This document shows, in pieces, positions 3,267-64,000 of a stretch of 64,000 nt of DNA (within the stretch, counting starts at the first letter, position 1; each line of letters begins with the position of its first letter). The stretch is from Alphaproteobacteria bacterium (GTDB taxonomy: Bacteria; Pseudomonadota; Alphaproteobacteria; Reyranellales; Reyranellaceae). A model generated the notes under the pieces. That model ran no database searches and was not told where the DNA came from. It saw nothing but the letters and a program-made list of their open reading frames with translations. A program made the translations under genes and the position numbers. Where the stretch lies: NCBI GenBank assembly GCA_019235415.1, contig JAFAKN010000006.1, positions 1-64,000 of the forward strand, written 5' to 3'.

Positions 3267-4240
3267 GCGTCGCCGGCGTGGAGCGCATCGCGCTCGACGT
3301 CCATGCACATCTGGCGCCGGTGCTCAGGGATCGGCTGGCGAGCATCGCGGGCGTCACCTGGGACGACGCGGCCGGCGCGCTCACGATCGACGGCTACACG
3401 TTGGCCGCCAAGTCGGTCTATCGGCCCGAGGCGCTGGTCGCCTGGATGGACGAGCAGCGGGTCGAGCGCGCCTGGATCTCGATCCCGCCGCCGCTCTATC
3501 GCCTCGACCTTGACTTGGCGGCGATGCGCGACTGGGTGCACTACGCCAACGATGGCCTCGACGTCATGGCGTCGCGCTTTCCCGATCGCCTGTCGCCGCT
3601 CTATCACCTGCCCGTCACGCACCCGGCCTTGGCGGCCGAAGTCGCCACCGAGCGCGCCCGCACCAGCAAGGCGCGCTTCGCCATGCCGGCCGGATCGCAG
3701 GACCACAAGACCGTTCTCTCCGACCCTGACTTCGCGCCGCTCTGGTCGACGCTCGACCAGGTGCGCGGCTTTCTGTTCCTGCACCCGTGCAAGGGCTGCG
3801 ACCCGCGCTTCGAGCCGTTCTACCTGCACAACCTTTTGGGCAGCCCGATGGAGACGGCGCTCGCCGCCGCGCACCTCGCGATGTCCGGCGTGCTCGAGCG
3901 CCATCCCAACATGACGGTCTGCCTGGCGCACGGTGGCGGCGCCGCGGCCGCCATCGCCGGCCGCCTGGAACGCGGCCAGGTGACGGGGCGCCCCGGGGCC
4001 GATACCGGCGCGGAAAAGCCGCGCATCTCGTTCCGCCGCTTCTGCGTCGACTGCATCACCCACGATGCGGCGACGCTCGCGCTCGCCGCCGCCCGCCACG
4101 GCGAGGACCACGTCGTGTTCGGTTCCGACTGGCCCTTCTCCATGGGCCTGCCGGAACCGCACAGGCAACTCGCCGACCTCGACCCGAAGCTGCGCCAGCG
4201 CATCTTCCAGCACAATGCAAAGGCGCTCGGGCTGCTCTGA
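3263..4240 (+). CDS. amidohydrolase family protein (ACMSD/Amidohydro_2 type)
   Basis: 325 aa. It starts at a GTG overlapping the upstream stop by 4 bases. The N-terminal metal motif is LDVHAHL (HxH), and the C-terminal metal Asp is in VVFGSDWPFSMG, both typical of the Amidohydro_2 family that includes aminocarboxymuconate-semialdehyde decarboxylase and related hydrolases. A conserved CLAHGGGAA segment supplies a further His. The coupled arrangement with an M19 dipeptidase and a LacI regulator suggests a small catabolic operon for an amide or carboxylated ring substrate. The exact reaction cannot be read from sequence. Confidence 0.85.
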   Translation: MSVAGVERIALDVHAHLAPVLRDRLASIAGVTWDDAAGALTIDGYTLAAKSVYRPEALVAWMDEQRVERAWISIPPPLYRLDLDLAAMRDWVHYANDGLDVMASRFPDRLSPLYHLPVTHPALAAEVATERARTSKARFAMPAGSQDHKTVLSDPDFAPLWSTLDQVRGFLFLHPCKGCDPRFEPFYLHNLLGSPMETALAAAHLAMSGVLERHPNMTVCLAHGGGAAAAIAGRLERGQVTGRPGADTGAEKPRISFRRFCVDCITHDAATLALAAARHGEDHVVFGSDWPFSMGLPEPHRQLADLDPKLRQRIFQHNAKALGLL

Positions 4241-4247
4241 AGCGTGG

Positions 4248-4457
4248 TTACCGATCCGGGTCGAGTTCCGGGTATTGCCGATAGACGCGAAATATCAGAT
4301 GTCGGGCGACGATGCCGATGACGTCGGCAAGTGCGCCACGGCATTCATCCTTCTCTTCGCCTTCAGGCAGTTCACTGATGATGCCGTCGAGCGCGCCGAG
4401 CGGGCCATCCAAAGCAAGTGCGGCCGCCACGAGACGCGTCGCGATGTCCATCTGCAT
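4248..4457 (-). CDS. small hypothetical protein (69 aa)
   Basis: A compact acidic/helical small protein in the 437-base gap between the amidohydrolase and the EF-G-like gene, on the opposite strand. The composition is protein-like (DIATRLVAAALALDGPLG, then a charged loop, then VIGIVARHLIFRVYR), unlike the Arg/Ser-rich shadows around it. The frame stays open upstream of the ATG with plausible residues but shows no ATG, GTG or TTG there, so the start at 4457 is the simplest choice. I do not recognise a family. It might be an annotated small protein or a remnant. Confidence 0.45.
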   Translation of the reverse strand: MQMDIATRLVAAALALDGPLGALDGIISELPEGEEKDECRGALADVIGIVARHLIFRVYRQYPELDPDR

Positions 4458-4677: not shown

Positions 4678-6750
4678 ATGAACGACATCAAATCCGAGAC
4701 CATCCCTGGAGGCAGACCAGGCAGCGGCGCGCATCGTGTGGTGGCGCTGTGCGGGCCGTACCTCTCGGGCAAGACCAGCCTGCTCGAGAGCATCCTCTAC
4801 GCCACGGGGGCCATCGGCCGGCGCGGGTCGACGCGCGCCGGCACCTCGATCGGCGACGGCGCGCCGGAGGCGCGCAAGCGCGGCATGGGCACCGAGCTCA
4901 ACGTCGCCTCGGTCGACTATCTCGGCGACCAGTGGACCTTCGTCGACGTGCCGGGCTCGATCGAGTTCCAGCACGACGCCTTCGCCGCCCTGGCCGTGTG
5001 CGACGCCGCCGTCGTGGTCTGCGAGCCCGCCCCCGAGCGTGTCGTGGTCCTGGCGCCGCTCCTGAAATACATCGAAGACAACCGCATCCCGCACATCCTG
5101 TTCGTCAACAAGATCGATTCGGCCGAGGTCCGCGTGCGCGACATGATGGCCGCGCTGCAGACGATCTCGACGCGCAAGCTGGTGCTGCGCCAGGTGCCGA
5201 TCCGCCGTGCCGCCGCCAACGGCGCCGACGAGACGGTGGGCTATGTCGACCTCGTGAGCGAGCGCGCCTACCGCTACAAGTCGAGCGGCGCCTCCGACCT
5301 GATCGAGATGCCGGCCGAGCTGCTGCCGCGCGAAAACGAGGCGCGCCGCGAGATGCTGGAAACCCTGTCGGAGTTCGACGACACCCTGCTCGAGCAGCTG
5401 ATCGAGGACATCGCGCCGGAGAAGTCGCTGATCTACCGCGACCTGCACGACGAGTTCGGCGCCGACCAGATCGCGCCCGTGCTGCTCGGCGCCGGCGACC
5501 GCGAGAACGGCGTGCGGCGGCTGTTGAAGGCGCTGCGCCACGACACGCCGTTCGTCGCCAGGACCGCCGAACGCCGCGCCCTGCCGTCGAACGGCGTGGC
5601 GATGCTCGAATGCTTCAAGGTCCTGCACCAGAGCCACGCCGGCAAGCTCTCCCTCTGCCGCGTCTGGTCCGGGACGCTGAGCGAGGGGCAGACCCTGGGC
5701 GGGCAGCGCATCGGCACCTTGCTGCGGCCGTTCGGCCAGCGGCTGGACAAGATCGCCGAGGCCAAGGCGGGCGAGATCGTGGCGCTGGCCAAGGTCGACG
5801 CCCTGTCGGCCGGCCAGACGCTGAGTGCCGCCGGCATCGTCGCCACGGAGGATTTCCCGGCCGCCGAGCCGCCGGTGTTCGGGCTGTCGCTCTCGGCCAA
5901 GAACCGCAACGACGAGGTCAAGCTCACCGCGGCGCTGCAGAAGATCATCGAGGAAGACCCGTCACTCAGCTACGAGCAGCGGGCCGAGACGCACGAGCTC
6001 CTGCTCAAGGGCCAGGGCGAGATGCATCTGAAGGTGGCGATCGACAAGCTTGCCGCCCGCTACAACGTCGCCGTCGAGACGCAGACGCCGCGTGTCGCGT
6101 ATCGCGAGACCATCCAGCTCGGCACGCAGCAGCACGCGCGCTACAAGCGGCAGACCGGCGGCCATGGCCAGTTCGCCGACATCAAGATCGAGATCAAGCC
6201 CCTGCCGCGCGGCTCGGGCTTCCGCTTCGTCGACAAGATCGTAGGCGGCGTGGTGCCGCGCAACTTCATCCCGGCGGTCGAGGAAGGCCTGGGCGAGAAC
6301 CTCAAGGAAGGCCCGCTCGGCCAGCCCGTGGTCGACCTCGAAGTGACGCTGTTCGACGGCCAGTACCATTCGGTCGACAGCTCGGAAATGTCGTTCAAGA
6401 TGGCCGCCCGCATCGCGCTCAGCGAGGGCCTGCCCAAGTGCAAGCCGGTGCTGCTCGAGCCGATCCTCAAGGTGACCGTGGCCGCGCCCAGCGAAGCAAC
6501 GCCGCGCATCCAGCGGCTGATCTCGGGCCGCCGAGGCCAGCTTCTGGGCTATGACGCGCGCGCGGGGTGGAGCGGCTGGGACGAGGTTTCGGCCCTGATG
6601 CCCGAGGCCGAGATCGCCGACATGATCGTCGAGATCCGCTCGGTCACGCAGGGCGTCGGCACCTTCCGCACCGAGTTCGACCATCTGCAGGAGCTGGTCG
6701 GACGCACCGCCGACCGCATCGTCGAGGAGAGCAAGAAGCGGGCTGCCTGA
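4678..6750 (+). CDS. elongation factor G-like translational GTPase (second EF-G type)
   Basis: 690 aa with the layout of EF-G: a G domain, a beta-barrel domain, then domains III to V. The P-loop is GPYLSGKT (residues 26-33) instead of the usual GHxDxGKT, the G3 motif is DVPG rather than DTPGH, and the G4 motif is NKID. Domain IV and V segments such as RQTGGHGQFADIKIEIKPL are clear. These departures put it with the divergent EF-G paralogues of alphaproteobacteria rather than the canonical FusA of the str operon. A strong AAAGGGAGGA precedes the ATG. Its role, for example in recycling or stress translation, is not evident. Confidence 0.88.
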   Translation: MNDIKSETIPGGRPGSGAHRVVALCGPYLSGKTSLLESILYATGAIGRRGSTRAGTSIGDGAPEARKRGMGTELNVASVDYLGDQWTFVDVPGSIEFQHDAFAALAVCDAAVVVCEPAPERVVVLAPLLKYIEDNRIPHILFVNKIDSAEVRVRDMMAALQTISTRKLVLRQVPIRRAAANGADETVGYVDLVSERAYRYKSSGASDLIEMPAELLPRENEARREMLETLSEFDDTLLEQLIEDIAPEKSLIYRDLHDEFGADQIAPVLLGAGDRENGVRRLLKALRHDTPFVARTAERRALPSNGVAMLECFKVLHQSHAGKLSLCRVWSGTLSEGQTLGGQRIGTLLRPFGQRLDKIAEAKAGEIVALAKVDALSAGQTLSAAGIVATEDFPAAEPPVFGLSLSAKNRNDEVKLTAALQKIIEEDPSLSYEQRAETHELLLKGQGEMHLKVAIDKLAARYNVAVETQTPRVAYRETIQLGTQQHARYKRQTGGHGQFADIKIEIKPLPRGSGFRFVDKIVGGVVPRNFIPAVEEGLGENLKEGPLGQPVVDLEVTLFDGQYHSVDSSEMSFKMAARIALSEGLPKCKPVLLEPILKVTVAAPSEATPRIQRLISGRRGQLLGYDARAGWSGWDEVSALMPEAEIADMIVEIRSVTQGVGTFRTEFDHLQELVGRTADRIVEESKKRAA

Positions 6751-14199: not shown

Positions 14200-14228
14200 A
14201 AAAAAATAGCCGGGCACTGGGCCCGGCT
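14200..14228 (-). terminator. intrinsic terminator of the trxB-lysR transcript
   Basis: On the minus strand an 8-pair perfect stem (AGCCGGGC/GCCCGGCT) with a 5-base loop is followed by TATTTTTTT. It lies about 200 bases after the LysR stop. The rest of 14110-14431 has no coding frame that looks real. Confidence 0.8.
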
Positions 14229-14431
14229 AAGTCAAACAGGGAGGCTTCACGTCTGGGAGACGTGGGATCATGAGGATCCCGAGTTTCAACGCGATCAGCC
14301 GAAACCGTTCGTGTCGAAGACCTGAACCGAACCTAATCGCCGTTCGCTGCATTGCCAGAGGGGAATTGCGAAAACTGGCATGCGGAGAGCGCATGCCTTT
14401 CATTGGCTATGCACTCCTGCACATCTCAGCG

Positions 14432-54616: not shown

Positions 54617-55720
54617 TCAAGCCGCGAGCTTGTACAGCTCGGCGACGTTATCGTGCAGGATGCGCTTCCTGAGCTCGGGCGACAGATGCGCCGTCTGCTC
54701 GGCGATCACCTGCTGGCTCGACGGCCAGGTCGAATCGCTGTGCGGGAAGTCGGACGCCCACATGAGCTGATGCGGTCCCATCTGCTCGGCGAACTGGAAG
54801 GCTGTCCAGTCGTCCTGGAAGGTGAGCGCGATGTTCTCGCGGAAATACTCCGAGGGCAGGCGGGCGAGTTCCTGGCCCTTCATCCAGTAGCGATGGCGCT
54901 TGTAGGCGTGGTCCATGCGATACATGAAGTGCGGCGCCCAGCCGGCGTCGGCTTCGACGCAGACGACGCGCAGCTTGGGATGGCGCTCGAAGACGCCGGA
55001 GTAGACCAGCAGGCCCATGATGTCCTGGCAGCCGCGGATGATCGACAGGAACGAGTTGATCTTGGGTCCGCGCGGCTTGACCATGGTGTTGTCGCCGCTC
55101 GATGTCAGGATGTGGAAGGCGAGCGGCAGCTCGAGCGCCACGGCGGTCTCCCAGAACGGATCGTAGATCGGGTCGTCGTAGTCCTTCTCGGCGGGGTTGC
55201 CCGGCATCATGACGCCGCGAAAGCCCATCGCCTTGATGCGCTCGAGATCGGCGATGCCTTCCTCGACCGTGCGCATGGCCGTCTGGCCCATCCCGATCAG
55301 CCGGTCGGGCGCATGCGCACAATAGGACTCGAGCCAGCGATTGTAGGCATCGAAGCAGGCCTTCTTGTAGTCGAAGTCGGGGTGGTTGCAGAGCAGCATG
55401 CCGACCGTCGGGTAGATGATCTCGGCGCCGACGCCGTCTTTGTCCTGGTCGGCGAGCCGCACCGTGGGGTCCCAGCCGCCCCGGTGGAGGTCCTCGAACT
55501 TGGCGCCGCCGATCCGGATGTCCTGGGGCGCGACGCCGGCCGCGGCGATCAGGCCCATGGGCACCGGTGTCTTCATGCCCTCGACCACGTAGATGTCGCC
55601 CATGCCCTCCTTGTGGACGACGTGCGGCGCCTTCTCTCGCCAAGCCGGCTCAATGTTCTCGACATAGCAGAGCGGCGGCTCGGTGATGTGCGAATCGGCG
55701 GAAATCGGGCGCCAGTCCAT
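54617..55720 (-). CDS. amidohydrolase family protein (Amidohydro_2)
   Basis: 367 aa. RPISADSHITEPP carries the N-terminal metal motif (D-S-H rather than H-x-H), and LMWASDFPHSDSTWPSS the C-terminal Asp with 'DFPHSDS', a pattern frequent in the Amidohydro_2 proteins of soil alphaproteobacteria, often found beside luciferase-like monooxygenases as here. ATG at 55720 follows a CGGAGG-type site (GGAGGAACGAGA). Probably degrades a product of the adjacent monooxygenase; the substrate is unknown. Confidence 0.9.
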   Translation of the reverse strand: MDWRPISADSHITEPPLCYVENIEPAWREKAPHVVHKEGMGDIYVVEGMKTPVPMGLIAAAGVAPQDIRIGGAKFEDLHRGGWDPTVRLADQDKDGVGAEIIYPTVGMLLCNHPDFDYKKACFDAYNRWLESYCAHAPDRLIGMGQTAMRTVEEGIADLERIKAMGFRGVMMPGNPAEKDYDDPIYDPFWETAVALELPLAFHILTSSGDNTMVKPRGPKINSFLSIIRGCQDIMGLLVYSGVFERHPKLRVVCVEADAGWAPHFMYRMDHAYKRHRYWMKGQELARLPSEYFRENIALTFQDDWTAFQFAEQMGPHQLMWASDFPHSDSTWPSSQQVIAEQTAHLSPELRKRILHDNVAELYKLAA

Positions 55721-55868: not shown

Positions 55869-55943
<75 letters not shown>

Positions 55944-56369
55944 GCCGGCCGCTGCCATTAAATGCAAGCGGGCCAACGTTTTATCGACGTTGACTCGCTT
56001 GCTTTTCCCTGTGGATGGCGGCCAGTCTTGCCCAGCAAATAACCGCAACGGACCGCGAACAGCCGAAAAAAACACTGGGCAACTCACTGGGCAAACGTTC
56101 TCTGCCTGTTCAAGCTCTGATGATGACGCACCTACGGTCGCCGCCTACCTTCTCGAGCCATGATCGAGGTCGGCTTGAGCGCGAGCGACGCGCCTTTCGC
56201 GGGCTCGATCGGCACCGACGAACCGTCGAGTTGATCGTTGACGGAGGCCATGGCCTTCACCATTGCCTCCTGCGCCGAGGGGCCTTCGATGTCTGAGGCT
56301 GCGAGGTGGCTATCCTTGTCATAGACGACGGCGTCACCAGGTGTGGCCAAGCTTCAGCACAACGAAGAG
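55944..56369. other. gene-poor stretch after tRNA-Thr
   Basis: No confident gene. An inverted pair just after the tRNA (GCAAGCGGGCCAACG ... CGTTGACTCGCTTGC) could form a hairpin near 55964-56003. A 72-aa minus-strand frame (56132-56350, MATPGDAVVYDKDSHLAA...) has protein-like composition but no family I recognise. Confidence 0.5.
56132..56350 (-). CDS. possible small hypothetical protein or remnant (72 aa)
   Basis: The frame reads plausibly (DIEGPSAQEAMVKAMASV, then SSVPIEPAKGASLALKPT), unlike the Arg/Pro-rich shadows nearby. It lies between tRNA-Thr and the tRNA-Pro fragment. It may be the end of a former island gene. No Shine-Dalgarno is obvious. Confidence 0.3.
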   Translation of the reverse strand: MATPGDAVVYDKDSHLAASDIEGPSAQEAMVKAMASVNDQLDGSSVPIEPAKGASLALKPTSIMAREGRRRP

Positions 56370-56433
56370 AGCCTGGTAGAGCATTAGCTTCGGAAGCTAG
56401 GGGCCGGAGGTTCGAATCCTCTCACTCCGACCA
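56370..56433 (+). pseudogene. 3' fragment of a tRNA-Pro (anticodon CGG), probable attachment-site remnant
   Basis: From the D loop onward the sequence is a good tRNA: D-loop AGCCTGGTAGAGC, anticodon arm TTAGC-TTCGGAA-GCTAG (anticodon CGG), T arm GGAGG-TTCGAAT-CCTCT, acceptor strand CACTCCG, then A and CCA. The expected 5' part (CGGAGTG and the first D-stem strand) is absent: the bases before it (AACGAAGAG) do not pair. Such 3' tRNA pieces are what tyrosine integrases leave at island ends. Confidence 0.75.
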
Positions 56434-57465
56434 ATCGGTGAAGGGTTTTGGGGGCTTTCCGGAAGGAGGGCCCCCAAGCTTTCAGGGACATTTTTCAAAG
56501 ACTCCGTTCTCTTCTCTTTCTCGCGGCAGGGCAATCCATTCCGCGTCGGGTTTGTGGTGACGTTGGTCCACACCCGGCATCGCCGGTCCAGCCGCATAAT
56601 CACGATGCCGATGGCCAGGGCGGCCACCCGGATCGCCGCATGCCGTGGAGAAGTCATGAACGCACCCGTCAATCGCAAGTCACTACACTTGCTTCGTCTT
56701 GAAATGGCACCGGCTTGATCTGCGCCGCCCGGCGCTACCGGGCGCAATGCTTGTAGAGCGCGACCAAGCGACCAAGCCCATCTAAACCACAAGTTCTTTC
56801 AGGGTGGACGGCCACATCATCGAGATTGACGTGCGCGGCCGTGTCGCCGTCTCCGAGGCTGAGGCCCCATGCAGGACATCGGCATCGTGCGTCTGATGAA
56901 CTGACGCTCGCCTAGGCGGTTCGCGACGGCGCCCTGGCCCTGCTCCGGCGCCTTCGCGTCCGACGAGCTGCCACCACGGCCGAGCGCGGCCGCACCGCCT
57001 TAGAGTTCGGTCACTTTGCCCTGTAATGTAAGTCGCGGCCAGCATGCCGTCAGGTTGCGTCACGTCCTTGAAGGGCGCGGCGTGATCGAGCCAGCTCGCC
57101 ATCAGGTTGCCGAGCATGGCACGAGGATCGGCAATTCAGGCCGCGTACGGATCGAAAACGAAGGGAAGCACCAGTTCTCGCCATGCCTGACATCGAACGA
57201 GGCGTTTTTCGAGCAGAACGCGCGAACCGTAGCCTATGCCCGGCCCTACACGCTGAAGACGATGGCCGAGTCAGTCCCGGCGCAACTGTTCATCGCACTC
57301 TGGACCGTTTGAAGGGATGACCGGATCTAGATCAGCGCCCGATACCTGCACTGCCGGTACTTGACGCCACCGGATGGCCGCTTCTTTTCAACGTCCACAG
57401 ATTTTCACGACCCGACCATCAGGTCTGTCTTCCATCAACGTGCTGGCTCCTGTGCGAGCGTCTGC
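56434..57465. other. about 1 kb without a convincing gene
   Basis: Many short frames on both strands but none with a family signature. Two fragments look more protein-like than the rest: a minus-strand piece (57117 downwards, MLGNLMASWLDHAAPFKDV) and a plus-strand piece near 57160-57312 (EAFFEQNARTVAYARPYTL). They lie in overlapping sequence, so at most one is real. The stretch is probably decayed island DNA. Confidence 0.5.
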
Positions 57466-57891
57466 CTAGCCAGCTGGCCTGTTGTCGCGCTGCAGCGCTT
57501 GCACCTTCTTCCCCCAGACTTGATACAAGGTCGGCATGATCCACAGCAGCAAGCCACCGAACGCAATGCCCACTGCGCTGAAAGCTAGATCTGCGACGGA
57601 GGCATGACGACCAGGAGAATAGATCTGCCCAACTTCCAGGATCGCTGCATACGACGCCAGAAGGATGCACTGAACGCCCAGACGAACACGCCCCCGAAGA
57701 GCCAGTCCCATCACTATTGTTGTACCAAGGTAGGCCAGAACGTGTTCCGCGTGACCCACCAAGTGAGATAGGGACGACCGGCCCATTCCAAGGGGCGTCC
57801 GCATCAGCTCGTCGCCGGGAAGCCATGCAAGGACGCAAAGAGCAACGATGCAGAAAATGAATGCGACGCGAAGGAACGGAACCAGCGACAT
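57466..57891 (-). CDS. VanZ-like family membrane protein
   Basis: 141 aa with four hydrophobic helices: FLRVAFIFCIVALCVLAWLP, HVLAYLGTTIVMGLAL, VQCILLASYAAILEVGQIY and VADLAFSAVGIAFGGLLLW. The combination 'H...HVLAYxG', 'ILEVGQ...PGRHASVADL.FSAVG' is the VanZ pattern. The role of such small VanZ proteins is unclear; glycopeptide resistance should not be assumed. No adjacent partner. Confidence 0.85.
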   Translation of the reverse strand: MSLVPFLRVAFIFCIVALCVLAWLPGDELMRTPLGMGRSSLSHLVGHAEHVLAYLGTTIVMGLALRGRVRLGVQCILLASYAAILEVGQIYSPGRHASVADLAFSAVGIAFGGLLLWIMPTLYQVWGKKVQALQRDNRPAG

Positions 57892-58311
57892 CAGATCTGA
57901 AGCCTATCACAGCGTATGCCTATGGCGCTGGACAAAAGCTGTGCGAAAACTGGATGCGAGAGCCACCAGATCAAGTGGCGGCGATGCCGCACTCGGGCGA
58001 GATCGGCATGTGGGCGGTGCAGCCGGATGTCCGCAACTGCCCGGAGCTGACGGAGAAAAATCGAGCCGATGCCTGTCAGCTAGCGCAGGCAATGCCAGCA
58101 CCAATTCGCGCTCGACGCTCGGGGCGGAACGGCTGTCCGCCTCGTGGGCAGTCGGCGGCCCCTATGATCGGGTTGCCGGTAAACCTCGAGGTCATAGTGC
58201 GCGGGCCGCGAGCGCGCCGACACCTGCAGAGAAGGGCGCCCCTCGATCAAACGGGTGGTTTATTCGCGTTCAATGAAGGTGCTATAGTTTGATATCGCAA
58301 GAGCGACATGC
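57892..58311. other. intergenic, no supported gene
   Basis: Divergent spacer between the VanZ-like gene and a receiver-domain gene. The 143-aa plus-strand frame at 57861-58292 overlaps the VanZ N-terminus and has no recognisable domain, so I do not call it. Confidence 0.5.
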
Positions 58312-58725
58312 ATGCCCCAACCGAAAGAAGAGCGAATCTCGAGGCAACGGCGACTTCTGATCGTCGAAGATGAGGTCGTTGTCGCGTGGGAGCATGTCCT
58401 GACCGTGCACGAGCTGGGCTGGGAAGTGTGCGCAACGGTCGCGACGGAGCAAGCCGCGGTCGAAGCGGCATTGCATTTAAAGCCGGACGCCATCTTGATG
58501 GACTACCGACTTGCCCAGGGAGGCGATGGCTTTCTCGCCGCCCGTCTTATTCGCGAAACGAGCGATGCGCCGATCATCTTCTGCACGGCCTACGGGGCCT
58601 CTCTGAGGAATCAGCTCCTGTCGCTACGGCGTACCCAAATTATGAGGAAACCGGTGCTGCCGTCCTCCTTGCAGAAGGCACTGCAAGCGGCCCTGGAGGT
58701 CGAAACTCGGGTAGATGGACAATGA
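58312..58725 (+). CDS. single-domain response regulator (receiver only)
   Basis: 137 aa receiver: LLIVEDEVVVAWE (acidic pocket), phospho-acceptor D64 in AILMDYRLAQGGDG, Thr in IIFCTAYG and Lys in IMRKPVLPSSLQ. There is no output domain. Such CheY-like proteins with 'DYRLAxGxDG' often act with hybrid kinases in alphaproteobacteria. Convergent with the FixJ-like gene; no kinase lies nearby in the window. Confidence 0.92.
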   Translation: MPQPKEERISRQRRLLIVEDEVVVAWEHVLTVHELGWEVCATVATEQAAVEAALHLKPDAILMDYRLAQGGDGFLAARLIRETSDAPIIFCTAYGASLRNQLLSLRRTQIMRKPVLPSSLQKALQAALEVETRVDGQ

Positions 58726-58762
58726 ACGCCCTCCTTGCGCTCGTTGCGCTTGTTGCCGCTGC

Positions 58763-59422
58763 TCAAACCTCCCGATCGTTCGACAGTACCATTCGCACCA
58801 GATGCGATAGATTTTCCGCCTGCATCTTGTCCATCATGCTGGCGCGATAGCCTTCGACCATTCGGAAGCTGAGACTGAGATCATAAGCGATGATCTTGTT
58901 CGACTTGCCGGCAACAAGGCCCGCCAGTACCTGTCGTTCCCGCTCTGACAGCAGCTGCATTCGCCTACGGCATTCGGCCGATCGGAACGCGCGCTCACGC
59001 TCATTGCGCTGAGTAGCCAACGCGGCCTTCACCGCCCTCACCAGCACCCGGTTGTCGAATGGCTTCTCCAACAAGTCGAACGCACCGGCCTTCATTGCCT
59101 CGACGGCGAGTGCCACATCGGCATCCCCTGTCATCATAATCACCGGCACGCGGACTTGCTGCGCGACGAGGCGGCGTTGCAGTTCCAGCCCGTCAATGCC
59201 TGGTATTCGGATGTCGGCGACGACGCATCCAGCTGTGTGGCGTAAACCTCCTTGCAGAAAGGAAGTCGCTGATTCGTGCACTTGGACCGAGAATCCCGAG
59301 GTTTCGAGCAGGAATGCCAATGCCTCCAGAACATCGTTATCGTCGTCTATTACGTGTACGATCTGGCGCGCCAAATTTCGTTCCCCATGCTTGTTCCAGG
59401 AGCAATGGGTCGCCAACCACAT
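58763..59422 (-). CDS. FixJ-like response regulator (receiver + LuxR HTH)
   Basis: 219 aa. Receiver: VHVIDDDNDVLEALAFLLE, D70 in VVADIRIPGIDGLEL, VPVIMMTGDADV and DLLEKPFDNRVLV. HTH about residues 155-215: LSERERQVLAGLVAGKSNKII and MVEGYRASMMDKMQAENL. This matches the FixJ/NarL-type regulators used in redox or oxygen responses. The likely cognate kinase is not in the window. ATG at 59422; a start at the MW... codon is the only one in frame before the receiver. Confidence 0.93.
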   Translation of the reverse strand: MWLATHCSWNKHGERNLARQIVHVIDDDNDVLEALAFLLETSGFSVQVHESATSFLQGGLRHTAGCVVADIRIPGIDGLELQRRLVAQQVRVPVIMMTGDADVALAVEAMKAGAFDLLEKPFDNRVLVRAVKAALATQRNERERAFRSAECRRRMQLLSERERQVLAGLVAGKSNKIIAYDLSLSFRMVEGYRASMMDKMQAENLSHLVRMVLSNDREV

Positions 59423-60672
59423 TGACCATGATGATGAAGCGTCTCACGACCGCTCGAACGACGATCCAACACGAATCACCTTCGCGCCGACGCGCGGCGC
59501 TCCACTCACTCTGGTACCGCCCTGAGCCTGATCCCGCCTCATAGCCGTACCCTCGTGCTCGAAATCCTACTTCGCCGCCAATGTCGACGAAATCAACGTG
59601 CATGCATATTTGACTGCCCATGCGCGCACCTGAACCGCAATCAGGGTTCATAAGCTGATTAGCGAGAATCGGCACATTTGCAAGCTTGACGCTCGCACCG
59701 ACGAGCGAGCGGTTGCGGTGACGCGGTGAGACGGACAAACAAGCCGACTCGAGCCTCGAGGGGATGCTACTGTGCCGCCGGAATACTCATCGGCATTGCC
59801 TGTGCCGCATCGGCCGTGCACCGCCTTTCCAGCGGTATCGTTCCCGTCATGACGACAGACGCTCCGACCCTGCTGGTGCGAATAGCGCCTCATGTGCACC
59901 ACCCTGGCGAAGCAGCGACCGCGCAAGCAGCAAGAGCGCAATGATCGTCTCCTTAGAGCTCAGCGAACGCGCAAAGCACCCCAGCCCCCGCGCCCGCGTT
60001 GATCCCATAGGCTTGTGCTTCGAGCCAACGCCTAATGATCTCGGGAGTTCGGCCAGACCATGAGCAATGCCGCGCAGACCCCGACCGTGCCCGGTCCCAG
60101 TCGTCCGGCCTAATCATCAACTGCGCGATACGCCCATCCAATGGAACGGAAGGCGGCGGTCTGACATTGGGTGGCGCCGCCGGTTTGCGCAGTTCGGCGT
60201 CGTGTGATCCATGTCACGCGGGGCTCTGCTCACCCGATGGTTCGACTTGCAGGGTTCACTTTCGCAACTGCCATTGCGAAGGAGCGGCGGACAAGTCGAG
60301 CCCCTCACTCGAAAAGCTAGCGCGAGCCGCCACGATCTGTCCTTGCAATACCGCTTGCAAAGACGATCCAGCAAAAGAAGGCAGAAAAGTGATGTGAAAG
60401 AAGCACGCGCCATCCGCCGGCGCCTAGCAGTTACGTTCTCTGGCGCGCAAGATCTCGAAGCTTTCGCGTTTTCTGCAGAGACGGTCTCAGTCACCCTTAC
60501 AACGGCGGATTGATCAGCAAGTCGATTCTCGCAGGCCAGGGCCAGTGCTTCGCGTTCCGCACATGCGATCCACTTGCAGTGAGTTGGCCTATCAGGTGCA
60601 CGCATAGAATGTTGATCGGATCTGGCCTTTTTCACATTTCTGTAGTAGAGATGAAAAGACTGGAGGTGGGCT
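59423..60672. other. 1.25 kb without a confident gene
   Basis: Only short frames. The most protein-like is a minus-strand frame at 59953-60141 (listed separately). A plus-strand 72-aa frame (59726-59944) has a hydrophobic N-terminal segment (GILIGIACAASAVHRL) but no family. The composition is lower in GC than the chromosome to the left, as seen by eye, fitting accessory DNA. Confidence 0.5.
59953..60141 (-). CDS. possible small protein or gene remnant (62 aa)
   Basis: The frame reads DGRIAQLMIRPDDWDRARSG, then RTPEIIRRWLEAQAYGIN, more protein-like than its neighbours, and stays open for about 25 further codons upstream (RKPAAPPNVRPPPSVPLDG) without an ATG or GTG. The start taken is a TTG. 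It could be the 3' end of a lost gene. Confidence 0.3.
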   Translation of the reverse strand: MDGRIAQLMIRPDDWDRARSGSARHCSWSGRTPEIIRRWLEAQAYGINAGAGAGVLCAFAEL

Positions 60673-61422
60673 ATGGCTCGCAAACGCCCGTCTCAACATA
60701 GCGCAGACCAGTTTGCTCTCTTTGTCGCGAAAATCAGGGATACCTTGGACGGAGAGGCAGGCGCAAAATTCGACGAAGCGGTGAGCAAGCTCGTCCGCAG
60801 TAACACTGATCGTCAATGGGCACTTGGTAAATCCCCGGTCGGCGCCGGACGTTTTCAACCGGCCCTCCCGGAAAAGCCAGAGTTCGACCAGATCGAACGC
60901 GAGGCGCGAGAGACCGCCGACAGTAGAAATACCTTGCTCCTGTGGATCGGCCGATTGGTCTTCAACTGGTCGAACAACGAGAGCTTGCTTGTCTATGTCC
61001 TGATGCTTTTACTCGGCACTGATGAACGATCTGCGGCGGTCGTATTCGCGACACTCAATACGACCCGCGCTCGACTCGGGTTGGTGCACCGCCTCATGCT
61101 CCTCAAGGTCCGAGACCCTGCAGTTCAACGCGCACTCGCGGCCGTCATCGATCGCTTCAACGAGGCCGGTCGAGTACGAAACGACTTGTTGCATGCTATG
61201 TACTCCGTGAACGAGCGCGGAGAGATCACGCACACCCAGGCGATGCGCTTCGCGGAAAAGCGGGGCCACTTCTCATTTGGCGATCGTCAGCCAGTCGACG
61301 AAGAGCGTTTGGCCGAGCTCAAGCGCGTGGCGGATGAATTGATATCCTTAAATCGCGACCTCTGGGATCTGTTGCCCCGTCTGCGCACTGCCGTCGAACA
61401 AGCGACTGCCTCGGACGGCTGA
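60673..61422 (+). CDS. hypothetical protein with RNxxxH motif (HEPN-like)
   Basis: 249 aa, mostly helical. Around residue 169 it reads GRVRNDLLHAMYSV: R169-N-D-L-L-H174 fits the Rx4H (RNxxxH) signature of HEPN-superfamily ribonucleases, with helices before (LVFNWSNNESLLVYVLMLLLG) and after. HEPN proteins are toxins and antiviral effectors, but also housekeeping. GGAGG lies 6 bases before the ATG. It is alone in accessory DNA next to a transposase remnant. The remaining domain structure is not recognised. Confidence 0.75.
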   Translation: MARKRPSQHSADQFALFVAKIRDTLDGEAGAKFDEAVSKLVRSNTDRQWALGKSPVGAGRFQPALPEKPEFDQIEREARETADSRNTLLLWIGRLVFNWSNNESLLVYVLMLLLGTDERSAAVVFATLNTTRARLGLVHRLMLLKVRDPAVQRALAAVIDRFNEAGRVRNDLLHAMYSVNERGEITHTQAMRFAEKRGHFSFGDRQPVDEERLAELKRVADELISLNRDLWDLLPRLRTAVEQATASDG

Positions 61423-61430
61423 CGCATTCT

Positions 61431-61940
61431 TCAGCAGCAATATGAATAAGACTCCCTAATCCAAGCCGAGCTGCCATCACCATCGCCCAGAAAGCTGTCG
61501 CCTTTGTCGTTGCCTGCGGCGGACAATATTGCGCTCTCCTCGGCCCTCGCCGCCTCGTGCAGCTTGCGCAACATTACCAATGCGGTCCTGAAGGAGACGT
61601 TCAAGATCCGCTGAAGGTGGTGGGGCCGTATCGATTTCGTTCCCCCGTCCGTCAAGTAGATCGCCTGAAGCCATTTATGCAGGGGCACATGGCTGGCGCT
61701 GAAGATAGTGCCGTAGGTGACCGAAAATGTTCGTCGACACGCATAGCACTTGTACGTACCAAGTCGCGTCGAGTTCCCGTTGAGCTTGCCGACCCTGCCT
61801 TGGACCCCGCAGCGTGGGCAAACTGGGCCGTTAGGCCACAGTATGCGCTCGAAGTACTCGTGTGCGCTCATCTCATCCGCGAAGCGCGCGAGGCTTGCTC
61901 GCGATATCGCGCAGTCAGAGTGGTTCATAGCCTGCCCCAA
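61431..61940 (-). pseudogene. truncated IS1595-family transposase (zinc-ribbon N-terminal part)
   Basis: 169 aa. CPRCG ... YKCYACRRTFSVTYGTIF is the zf-IS1595 ribbon, preceded by YFERILWPNGP and followed by HKWLQAIYLTDGG and LNVSFRTALVMLRKLHEA, as in IS1595 transposases. The DDE (ISXO2-like) catalytic domain that should follow after about residue 130 is missing, replaced by an unrelated short tail ending CC. It cannot transpose by itself. Inverted ends were not found by eye. Confidence 0.8.
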
Positions 61941-62572
61941 CAGCTAGCCTGCATCCGCTTCCCACGGCGAGATGCAGTAGCGCCTTTAACTGTGCCTACT
62001 TGGTCGAGTTCGTGCAACTTAATATTTTCAGGGTCACTCATCTCCAATTTGTGATTGGCGTCACTAACAAAATTTCGCGCCGACTCTTTGATGCAGAAAG
62101 ACTAGGCACGGCCGACGACGCCCTCGGCCGACTCTGTGGGTACGAACCTGCGGCGTGGGCCTAAAAAAGATGGCGGGCCTCAGGACGCGTCTCCAGCTCT
62201 GGCAATCCATTCCTTCAAATGCGTGCTCGCAACTGTGGGACTTTGGCGACTTCAAGTTGGCGTTGCCAAGTCGCAGTTCGCCGATTGAGCGCCCTTTGCG
62301 GATCGGGAAGATGGGCCCGGTCGGAGAGAAGGTCGAGTCATCAATCTGATCTCGGATCGTGCGGTCACGAAGCCGCACCCAGTGGAGCCGTGGTTGCGGG
62401 CTCAAACTGAGGGAGGCCGCCATGTAACAGCTTGCTCAGATCGTCGGCCTGATGGGCCCGCGATCTCCACCACGCGGCGCATCGAACTGGCCCTGCCTCG
62501 CACACAGATGGATAGCGGACATGGCTTGGTCGAGCGCCAAATTGCAAAGAGTTTATGTCAGGAGACTAAGTC
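61941..62572. other. 632-base stretch without a supported gene
   Basis: A 119-aa minus-strand frame (62064-62423) is the longest but has no family and reads like a shadow. The region upstream of the Q/G/N-repeat gene should hold its promoter; I could not choose one. Confidence 0.5.
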
Positions 62573-63469
62573 ATGTCTAAGCAGAACCAGGGACAAGGCC
62601 AGGGCCAACTTCAGGGTCAAGCGAACCTCCAGGGCCAAGGCCAGCTTCAGGGCCAAGCGAACCTCCAGGGCCAGGGCCAGGGCCAGGGTCAGGGCCAAAG
62701 CCAGTCTGAAGCTCAGCTGGCAGCCCAGGGTGTGGCGCAGTTCGCCGATTCCAACAACGAGAACGGCAATCTGAACGGCAACGGCAACCTGAACGGCAAC
62801 GGAAACGGCAACGCCAATTTCGATGCCAATGGGAACCTGAACGGCAATGGCAATCTGAACGGCAATGAGAACTCCAACGAGAGCGCGAACTCGTTGCAGA
62901 ACGATCTGACGAACACTGCCAAGAACGAAGTCACAAATGAGGTCGACAACCAGGTCAAGACGAGCGTCGACGTCAAGGTGAACATCGACTTGAGCGGCCT
63001 CGACCTGAAGCCCCAACTCGACGCCTCTATTCACGTCGATCACAACGACGGCATCGCCTTCTCGATGCCGGACTCGGTGACTCAGACTCTCTCCGGCGGC
63101 GGTACGAATACCGCCTTCAACCTCGACCAGATCAACAACCTGGTCAGCAACGGCCATCTGGGGAGTCCGGAGGTCAGCTTCGCCGCTGGCGCCGGAGTCC
63201 TCGACTCGGAAGGCCACTTGTCTCCAGCGGTCTTCACCCAGACGGCAACCGCAACGGGCGGCGAATCCTCGGCCGATCACGCGCAGTCGATCGGGCACGA
63301 CACCAGCCCGGCGTCGATCGCCTCGAATGCCGAGGCGGCGATCACCCAGACCGCATTCACCCAGAGCATCGTGATGGGGGCGAACATCCAGTTCAACTCC
63401 GCTACCTTCAACGTGGTCGGTCATGACACGATCACCGCGGACGGCAGTGCCGCGATGGGCCACCACTAA
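62573..63469 (+). CDS. Q/G/N-rich repeat protein of unknown function
   Basis: 298 aa. Residues 1-45 are QGQ/LQGQ/ANLQGQ repeats, about 60-105 are NGNGNLNGNGN repeats, then a non-repetitive part with DVKVNIDLSGLDLKPQLDAS, HVDHNDGIAFSMPDSV and a C-terminus with many T, S, A and N (ending MGHH). There is no signal peptide; export, if any, would be by a C-terminal or type I route. AGGAG lies 9 bases before the ATG. A further frame begins 120 bases downstream. I recall similar QGQ proteins in Bradyrhizobium-like genomes, annotated as hypothetical. Confidence 0.85.
   Translation: MSKQNQGQGQGQLQGQANLQGQGQLQGQANLQGQGQGQGQGQSQSEAQLAAQGVAQFADSNNENGNLNGNGNLNGNGNGNANFDANGNLNGNGNLNGNENSNESANSLQNDLTNTAKNEVTNEVDNQVKTSVDVKVNIDLSGLDLKPQLDASIHVDHNDGIAFSMPDSVTQTLSGGGTNTAFNLDQINNLVSNGHLGSPEVSFAAGAGVLDSEGHLSPAVFTQTATATGGESSADHAQSIGHDTSPASIASNAEAAITQTAFTQSIVMGANIQFNSATFNVVGHDTITADGSAAMGHH
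62590..62900 (+). repeat. coding low-complexity repeats (CAGGGCCAAGG- and AACGGCAA-type)
   Basis: CAGGGCCAAGGCCAGCTTCAGGGCCAAGCGAACCTC-like units of about 36 bases (two copies of QLQGQANLQGQG), followed by runs of CAGGGC and later GGCAACGGCAACCTGAAC units. They are in frame with the protein and not a CRISPR array: no constant spacer. Confidence 0.85.
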
Positions 63470-63494
63470 ACGAAGCGCTGTGCTTAGGCGTAAA

Positions 63495-63524
63495 GGCTCC
63501 GCCCGGCTTTGGACGGGCGGAGCC
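63495..63524 (+). terminator. strong hairpin after the Q/G/N-repeat gene
   Basis: GGCTCCGCCCG and CGGGCGGAGCC form an 11-pair perfect stem with an 8-base loop, 26 bases after the stop. Followed by CTCTCTC rather than a pure T-run, so termination is likely but not certain. Confidence 0.65.
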
Positions 63525-63588
63525 CTCTCTCAGGCTGCCGAGTAGCTAGCCAGCTGGCCTAGGTGTGGGAACTGGGGTGGAGACCATC

Positions 63589-64000
63589 ATGCAGCTTGAC
63601 GGCAAGGGCTTCATTTCGCGTTTCATCGGCGCGCTGCATATTCCCTTCGATATCGCCGGCCGCACAGTCGACTATGACCCCGATGAGGGCACCCGGCGAC
63701 CGGAGGCGGTCGATCCGGCCAAGCCCCTGCATCCCCAGAAAGGTCCCGAGTTCGACGACCTCGAAACGCATCGATCGCCGACGCCCCCTTCTGTCCCTCA
63801 GGATCCGTGGGAGATAGGCAGCATACGGCCAATCCACTGGCCTAGCGCGCCACCTGCACCTCACGTAGGCGGCCATCCTCCGCCCCCGCATCTCCCTGAT
63901 CCCCCCTCGTCTTCCATTGGTGGCGGCGGAGGAGGCGGAGACGCCATCGGGACGAAGCAAGTGGTGGTCGTCAACATCGACTTGCAAATCGACGTCGACT
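63589..64000 (+). CDS. hypothetical protein, 3' truncated by the window
   Basis: The frame from ATG 63589 (MQLDGKGFISRFIGALHIPF) is open to the last base, so it is not in the ORF track. GGAG lies 8 bases before the ATG. About 137 residues are visible: an N-terminal part, then a Pro/His-rich linker (SAPPAPHVGGHPPPPHLPDP), a poly-Gly run and the start of a strand VVVVNIDLQIDVD. Function is unknown. Its position directly after the Q/G/N-repeat protein and the shared 'VNIDL' wording suggest that the two act together. Confidence 0.75.
   Translation, partial: MQLDGKGFISRFIGALHIPFDIAGRTVDYDPDEGTRRPEAVDPAKPLHPQKGPEFDDLETHRSPTPPSVPQDPWEIGSIRPIHWPSAPPAPHVGGHPPPPHLPDPPSSSIGGGGGGGDAIGTKQVVVVNIDLQIDVD

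Follow-up and report, generated by a model that had tools for sequence, protein, structure and literature searches.

The window analysed here, bases 1-64000 (64,000 nucleotides) of the 140,578-base (140.6 kb) contig C190, holds the left part of what is evidently a 68.8-kb genomic island (measured core to core, in a draft assembly) inserted into a tRNA-Thr(GGT) gene, and this island very likely carries, just inside its left end, the fossil end of a second element, of a type that targets tRNA-Pro(CGG). The source assembly is a draft genome of 7.6 Mb in 768 contigs, with an estimated contamination of 4.55%, that probably belongs to Reyranella, an assignment made from named records within the same genome group and not from phylogeny. 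The literature that we searched yielded nothing relevant on islands of Reyranella. The island itself is an ordinary tRNA-gene genomic island, an element of a known kind, and the finding has no bearing on any long-standing open question; what it provides are fixed borders for a 69-kb island only part of which falls within the window, and traces of exchange between the Thr- and Pro-targeting elements of Reyranella.

The case for insertion into tRNA-Thr is made by a perfect repeat, by arm sites that match between the two ends and by empty sites in relatives. The insertion gene is the intact tRNA-Thr(GGT) at 55869-55943 on the plus strand (called by ARAGORN; 72.8 bits in Rfam), the last 53 bases of which, forming the attL core at 55891-55943 (plus strand), recur as a direct repeat, identical at 53 of 53 positions, at C190:124647-124699, outside the window. 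This second copy, the attR core, sits where the low-GC DNA ends and GC returns to the core level: the values are ~0.58-0.64 between the Thr copies (~0.57-0.64 in the window after 56 kb) and ~0.65-0.70 outside, in agreement with the GC drop that had been noted at this point. Just inside each repeat lies a pair of putative arm sites. The left pair, CTGGGCAACTCACTGGGCAA at 56075-56094 (plus strand), follows the attL core by 131 bp, and the right pair starts 50 bp before the attR core; a search of the contig for the motif CTGGGCAR-N4-CTGGGCAR found only these two instances in 140.6 kb (starts 56075 and 124597), and shuffled contigs contained 0.0 strict pairs per contig. Furthermore, the segment at 55944-56100 (plus strand), apparently the left-end arm of Thr-type elements, resembles the sequence that follows the CCA of tRNA-Thr in Reyranella islands of four genomes (G022, G009, G004 and G011), and a pair of CTGGGCAA-like sites is part of that resemblance.

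The relatives complete the picture. The amidohydrolase gene at 54617-55720 (minus strand) is a core left flank that is conserved beside tRNA-Thr, and in at least three genomes without the island (G014, G041 and G033) it again adjoins tRNA-Thr on the left, with the gene of the right flank, for an ABC-transporter binding protein, 160-853 bp further on, both Thr flanks being joined with nothing of the island between them. Repeat, arm sites and empty sites thus bear out the original prediction that an island starts here, and also that it continues to the right: from its share of the window, 55944-64000, it runs on to C190:124699. Beyond attR, our contig still has the native right flank of tRNA-Thr, a fact that effectively refutes the notion that a chromosomal deletion or rearrangement put tRNA-Pro beside tRNA-Thr. 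Such an event would be in keeping with the location of the two tRNA genes 33-105 kb apart and in the same orientation in seven genomes (G016, G022, G024, G036, G043, G045 and G058), but on another contig, C182, tRNA-Pro is still intact, native left flank included, and of all the readings considered here this one is the least credible.

So what is the tRNA-Pro sequence that lies next to tRNA-Thr? The 64 bases at 56370-56433 (plus strand) correspond to positions 14-77, including the CCA, of tRNA-Pro(CGG), and positions 1-13 are absent. The search for an intact counterpart that had been proposed succeeded: a BLAST comparison with the own genome gives 97% identity (62/64, E ~1e-24) to the intact gene at 4262-4338 of contig C182, the two differences being C28T and G38A in the linear numbering of the 77-base gene. 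The fragment is therefore real, as predicted, and its distance of 426 bases downstream of the intact tRNA-Thr was given correctly, which places it 426 bp inside the left end of the island. The Rfam tRNA match at 56363-56430 scores 30.9 bits, barely above the threshold of 29, with several pairs broken, and ARAGORN does not call the fragment as a tRNA, its sole call here being tRNA-Thr; on these grounds, the fragment is a pseudogene.

The original prediction had taken this fragment for a probable island boundary; it would then be the attR of an element that had tRNA-Pro(CGG) as its target. The coincidence of the fragment with the GC change speaks for such an interpretation, as does the fact that tRNA-Pro(CGG) is a genuine integration site in the genus; however, the low-GC DNA is bracketed by the pair of tRNA-Thr repeats, island-type arm sequence intervenes between tRNA-Thr and the fragment, the intact tRNA-Pro is located on another contig, C182, and contig C86 of the same genome has a better attR, one with an integrase. 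With the 53-bp Thr repeat, the arm sites and the empty sites all putting the border at tRNA-Thr(GGT), the fragment was wrongly cast as the boundary, and a tRNA-Pro attR at this position is highly improbable. A tRNA fragment close to a GC change, then, need not be an island border.

The DNA that follows the fragment suggests a different origin. The sequence at 56434-56529 (plus strand), which consists of a terminator-like hairpin and CAGGGAC repeats, is probably the flank at the left end of an element of Pro type. Together with ~100 bases of this 3' flank, the fragment matches an intact tRNA-Pro and its flank in G047 (the MAG Dino_bin47, labelled Rhodospirillales) at 93% over 160 bp, G002 at 91% over 120 bp, and a fragment on contig C164 of R. 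soli at 85% over 227 bp, the last match reaching ~56609. To the left of tRNA-Pro, G047 hardly differs from G012 (R. soli NBRC 108950) and G014, two genomes whose native right flank is different, and for this reason the right flank in G047 probably represents a Pro-type element's left end; a partial tyrosine integrase, cut by the contig end, lies 4.4 kb downstream of the tRNA-Pro. The fragment and flank in the window are, on present sequence comparisons, best read as the fossil left end of an element of the same tRNA-Pro type. In a survey of 65 genomes of the genus, R. soli C164 was the single other place where the truncated tRNA-Pro and this 3' flank occurred together, and the relic there probably resides in mobile DNA because that contig has ArdC-like and relaxase genes. 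The same survey, in which the fragment and its flanks were sought in relatives, found it beside tRNA-Thr in the arrangement of the window in 0 of 65 genomes. The link of the fragment to mobile DNA had been rightly proposed, and this comparison does not refute it.

Alternatively, the fragment and flank could be a piece of a donor's native tRNA-Pro locus, captured via imprecise excision or illegitimate recombination, instead of an element end. The fragment does extend upstream beyond the region where crossover usually takes place, and the flank contains a terminator-like hairpin, like native flanks, but the commonest flank in the genus (ATCGGGACAAACGGCGCGCAGC) differs, and the G047 flank, beyond which an integrase lies, has no counterpart among the native right flanks examined. 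We consider a captured donor locus unlikely, though deserving of some weight. As candidate sources, a native Pro flank for the sequence from 56434 onward was rejected, there being no match among the native flanks examined, and so was the derivation of the left end from a plasmid, where the matches covered essentially the tRNA part only. Several facts count against the reading as a Pro-type element end that we prefer, among them the truncation of the G047 element by a contig end and the lack of recognisable conjugation or excision genes among the proteins scanned. The fragment starts at position 14, whereas the 3' fragments of tRNA-Pro(CGG) elsewhere, present in ~10 of the 61 genomes in which they were counted, mostly start at position 29-31, so that it is not a plain core; moreover, there is one Pro copy only on the contig, the far end of the Pro element being missing.

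More generally, both tRNA-Thr(GGT) and tRNA-Pro(CGG) have repeatedly served as integration targets in Reyranella. Tyrosine integrases are found directly upstream of Pro 3' fragments on C86 of the source genome and in G014, G037 and G039, and G011 and G028 have Thr-type integrases beside 3' fragments of tRNA-Thr. On C86, an integrase and a 47-bp Pro 3' fragment occupy 5138-6371, and a stretch farther on corresponds to G022's native right flank; the own tRNA-Pro gene at C182:4262-4338 has an unusual right flank, and its site seems to be occupied by a different element. The minus strand of contig C173 of G039 (3292-3364 and 4337-4375) shows the converse of the arrangement in the window: a Pro-type integrase with a frameshift and a Pro 3' fragment are followed, ~1 kb further downstream, by a copy of tRNA-Thr (95%, one small deletion). 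Internal pieces of tRNA-Pro and tRNA-Thr are fused almost directly, next to repeat-like hairpin sequence, on the minus strand of G021 C91 (5056-5145) and G051 C106 (5224-5299). It could be envisaged, by analogy with tripartite integrative and conjugative elements (ICEs), that the island is one state of a two-site element in which the Thr and Pro att sites were both once functional, so that islands at the two linked tRNA genes of Reyranella could have joined and split; the G039 contig can be cited as the converse case, but we regard such an element as exceedingly improbable.

The original prediction that the window is free of an integrase was confirmed, and the proposed search beyond 64 kb detected none either: there is no PF00589 match, hence no recognisable tyrosine integrase, over the 140.6 kb of C190. 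Searches of the island by tblastn and HMMs with integrases from the own genome and from relatives gave chance-level matches only, and upstream of 56370 there is no integrase, only frames with stops; the stretch separating tRNA-Thr from the Pro fragment was likewise dismissed as a coding remnant, its frames being short and interrupted by stops. Genomic islands without an integrase are common, and the absence of an own integrase is read as decay; the element does look decayed, as had been surmised, and with no integrase detected on the contig it appears to be immobilised, such that excision would require an integrase acting in trans. Among the island proteins scanned with Pfam (a subset of the open reading frames), no relaxase, conjugation or excision genes were recognised. 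The identifiable cargo comprises glycosyltransferases, a Wzz chain-length protein (its nearest relatives being those of G016, with 73% protein identity, and G003, with 69%) and an O-antigen ligase-like protein; an ABC exporter, an HlyD-type adaptor, two-component regulators and GNAT proteins; and a GMC oxidoreductase, Ig-like repeat proteins and remnants of IS1595 and Mutator transposases. The predicted transposase remnant is present within the window as the zinc-ribbon part (PF12760) of a truncated IS1595-family transposase at 61431-61940 (minus strand), and the region exists in two diverged inverted copies (76%) within the island, at 61546-61913 and C190:69170-69537. A low-complexity Q/N/G-rich protein is encoded at 62573-63469 and, from 63565, a 666-aa protein without a Pfam match, then the exporter and adaptor; four more Reyranella genomes (G061, G005, G012 and G022) share this exporter block, at 72-75% DNA identity and at other places. 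Elsewhere in the window, 14202-14268 on the minus strand matches the SorX sRNA of Rfam (48.4 bits, the gathering score being 46.6).

The history that we favour would run as follows. A 68.8-kb integrative element inserted itself at the 3' end of tRNA-Thr(GGT), presumably via tyrosine-integrase recombination, thereby giving rise to attL and attR, and would later have lost its own integrase. The insertion at Thr, the matching ends, the empty sites and the likeness of fragment and flank to DNA at an intact tRNA-Pro in another Reyranella are direct observations; the nature of that DNA as an element end, the sequence of events and the recombination step are interpretation. It would carry the Pro core together with the left flank of the second element, from 56434 to ~56530, and this Pro end was probably acquired either through recombination between two islands or through exchange of an integration module, with a switch of target from Pro to Thr.

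Like the ICEs, integrative and mobilizable elements (IMEs) and islands that target tRNA genes by means of tyrosine integrases, the Reyranella island combines insertion at a tRNA 3' end and direct-repeat att cores with paired arm-like sites, atypical GC and mixed cargo; it differs in that no integrase is found on the contig, no conjugation genes were recognised among the proteins scanned, and the attachment fossil of a second tRNA is held within. The tripartite ICEs of Mesorhizobium (PMC5882170, PMC8627217) are comparable in having several att types per element and a large part devoid of an integrase, but both outer ends here are Thr/Thr and neither a second or third part nor conjugation genes were identified; a tripartite ICE, the parts of which are bounded by different att types, was accordingly rejected for an island with two Thr-type ends. 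The ICEs and IMEs of Mesorhizobium use tRNA-Pro and tRNA-Thr among other sites, and frequent switching of integration mechanisms, with replacement of recombination systems, has been inferred for the ICEs (PMC8627217). Site switching and module exchange of this kind could leave behind just such a relic; in Reyranella we see the relic and infer the switch.
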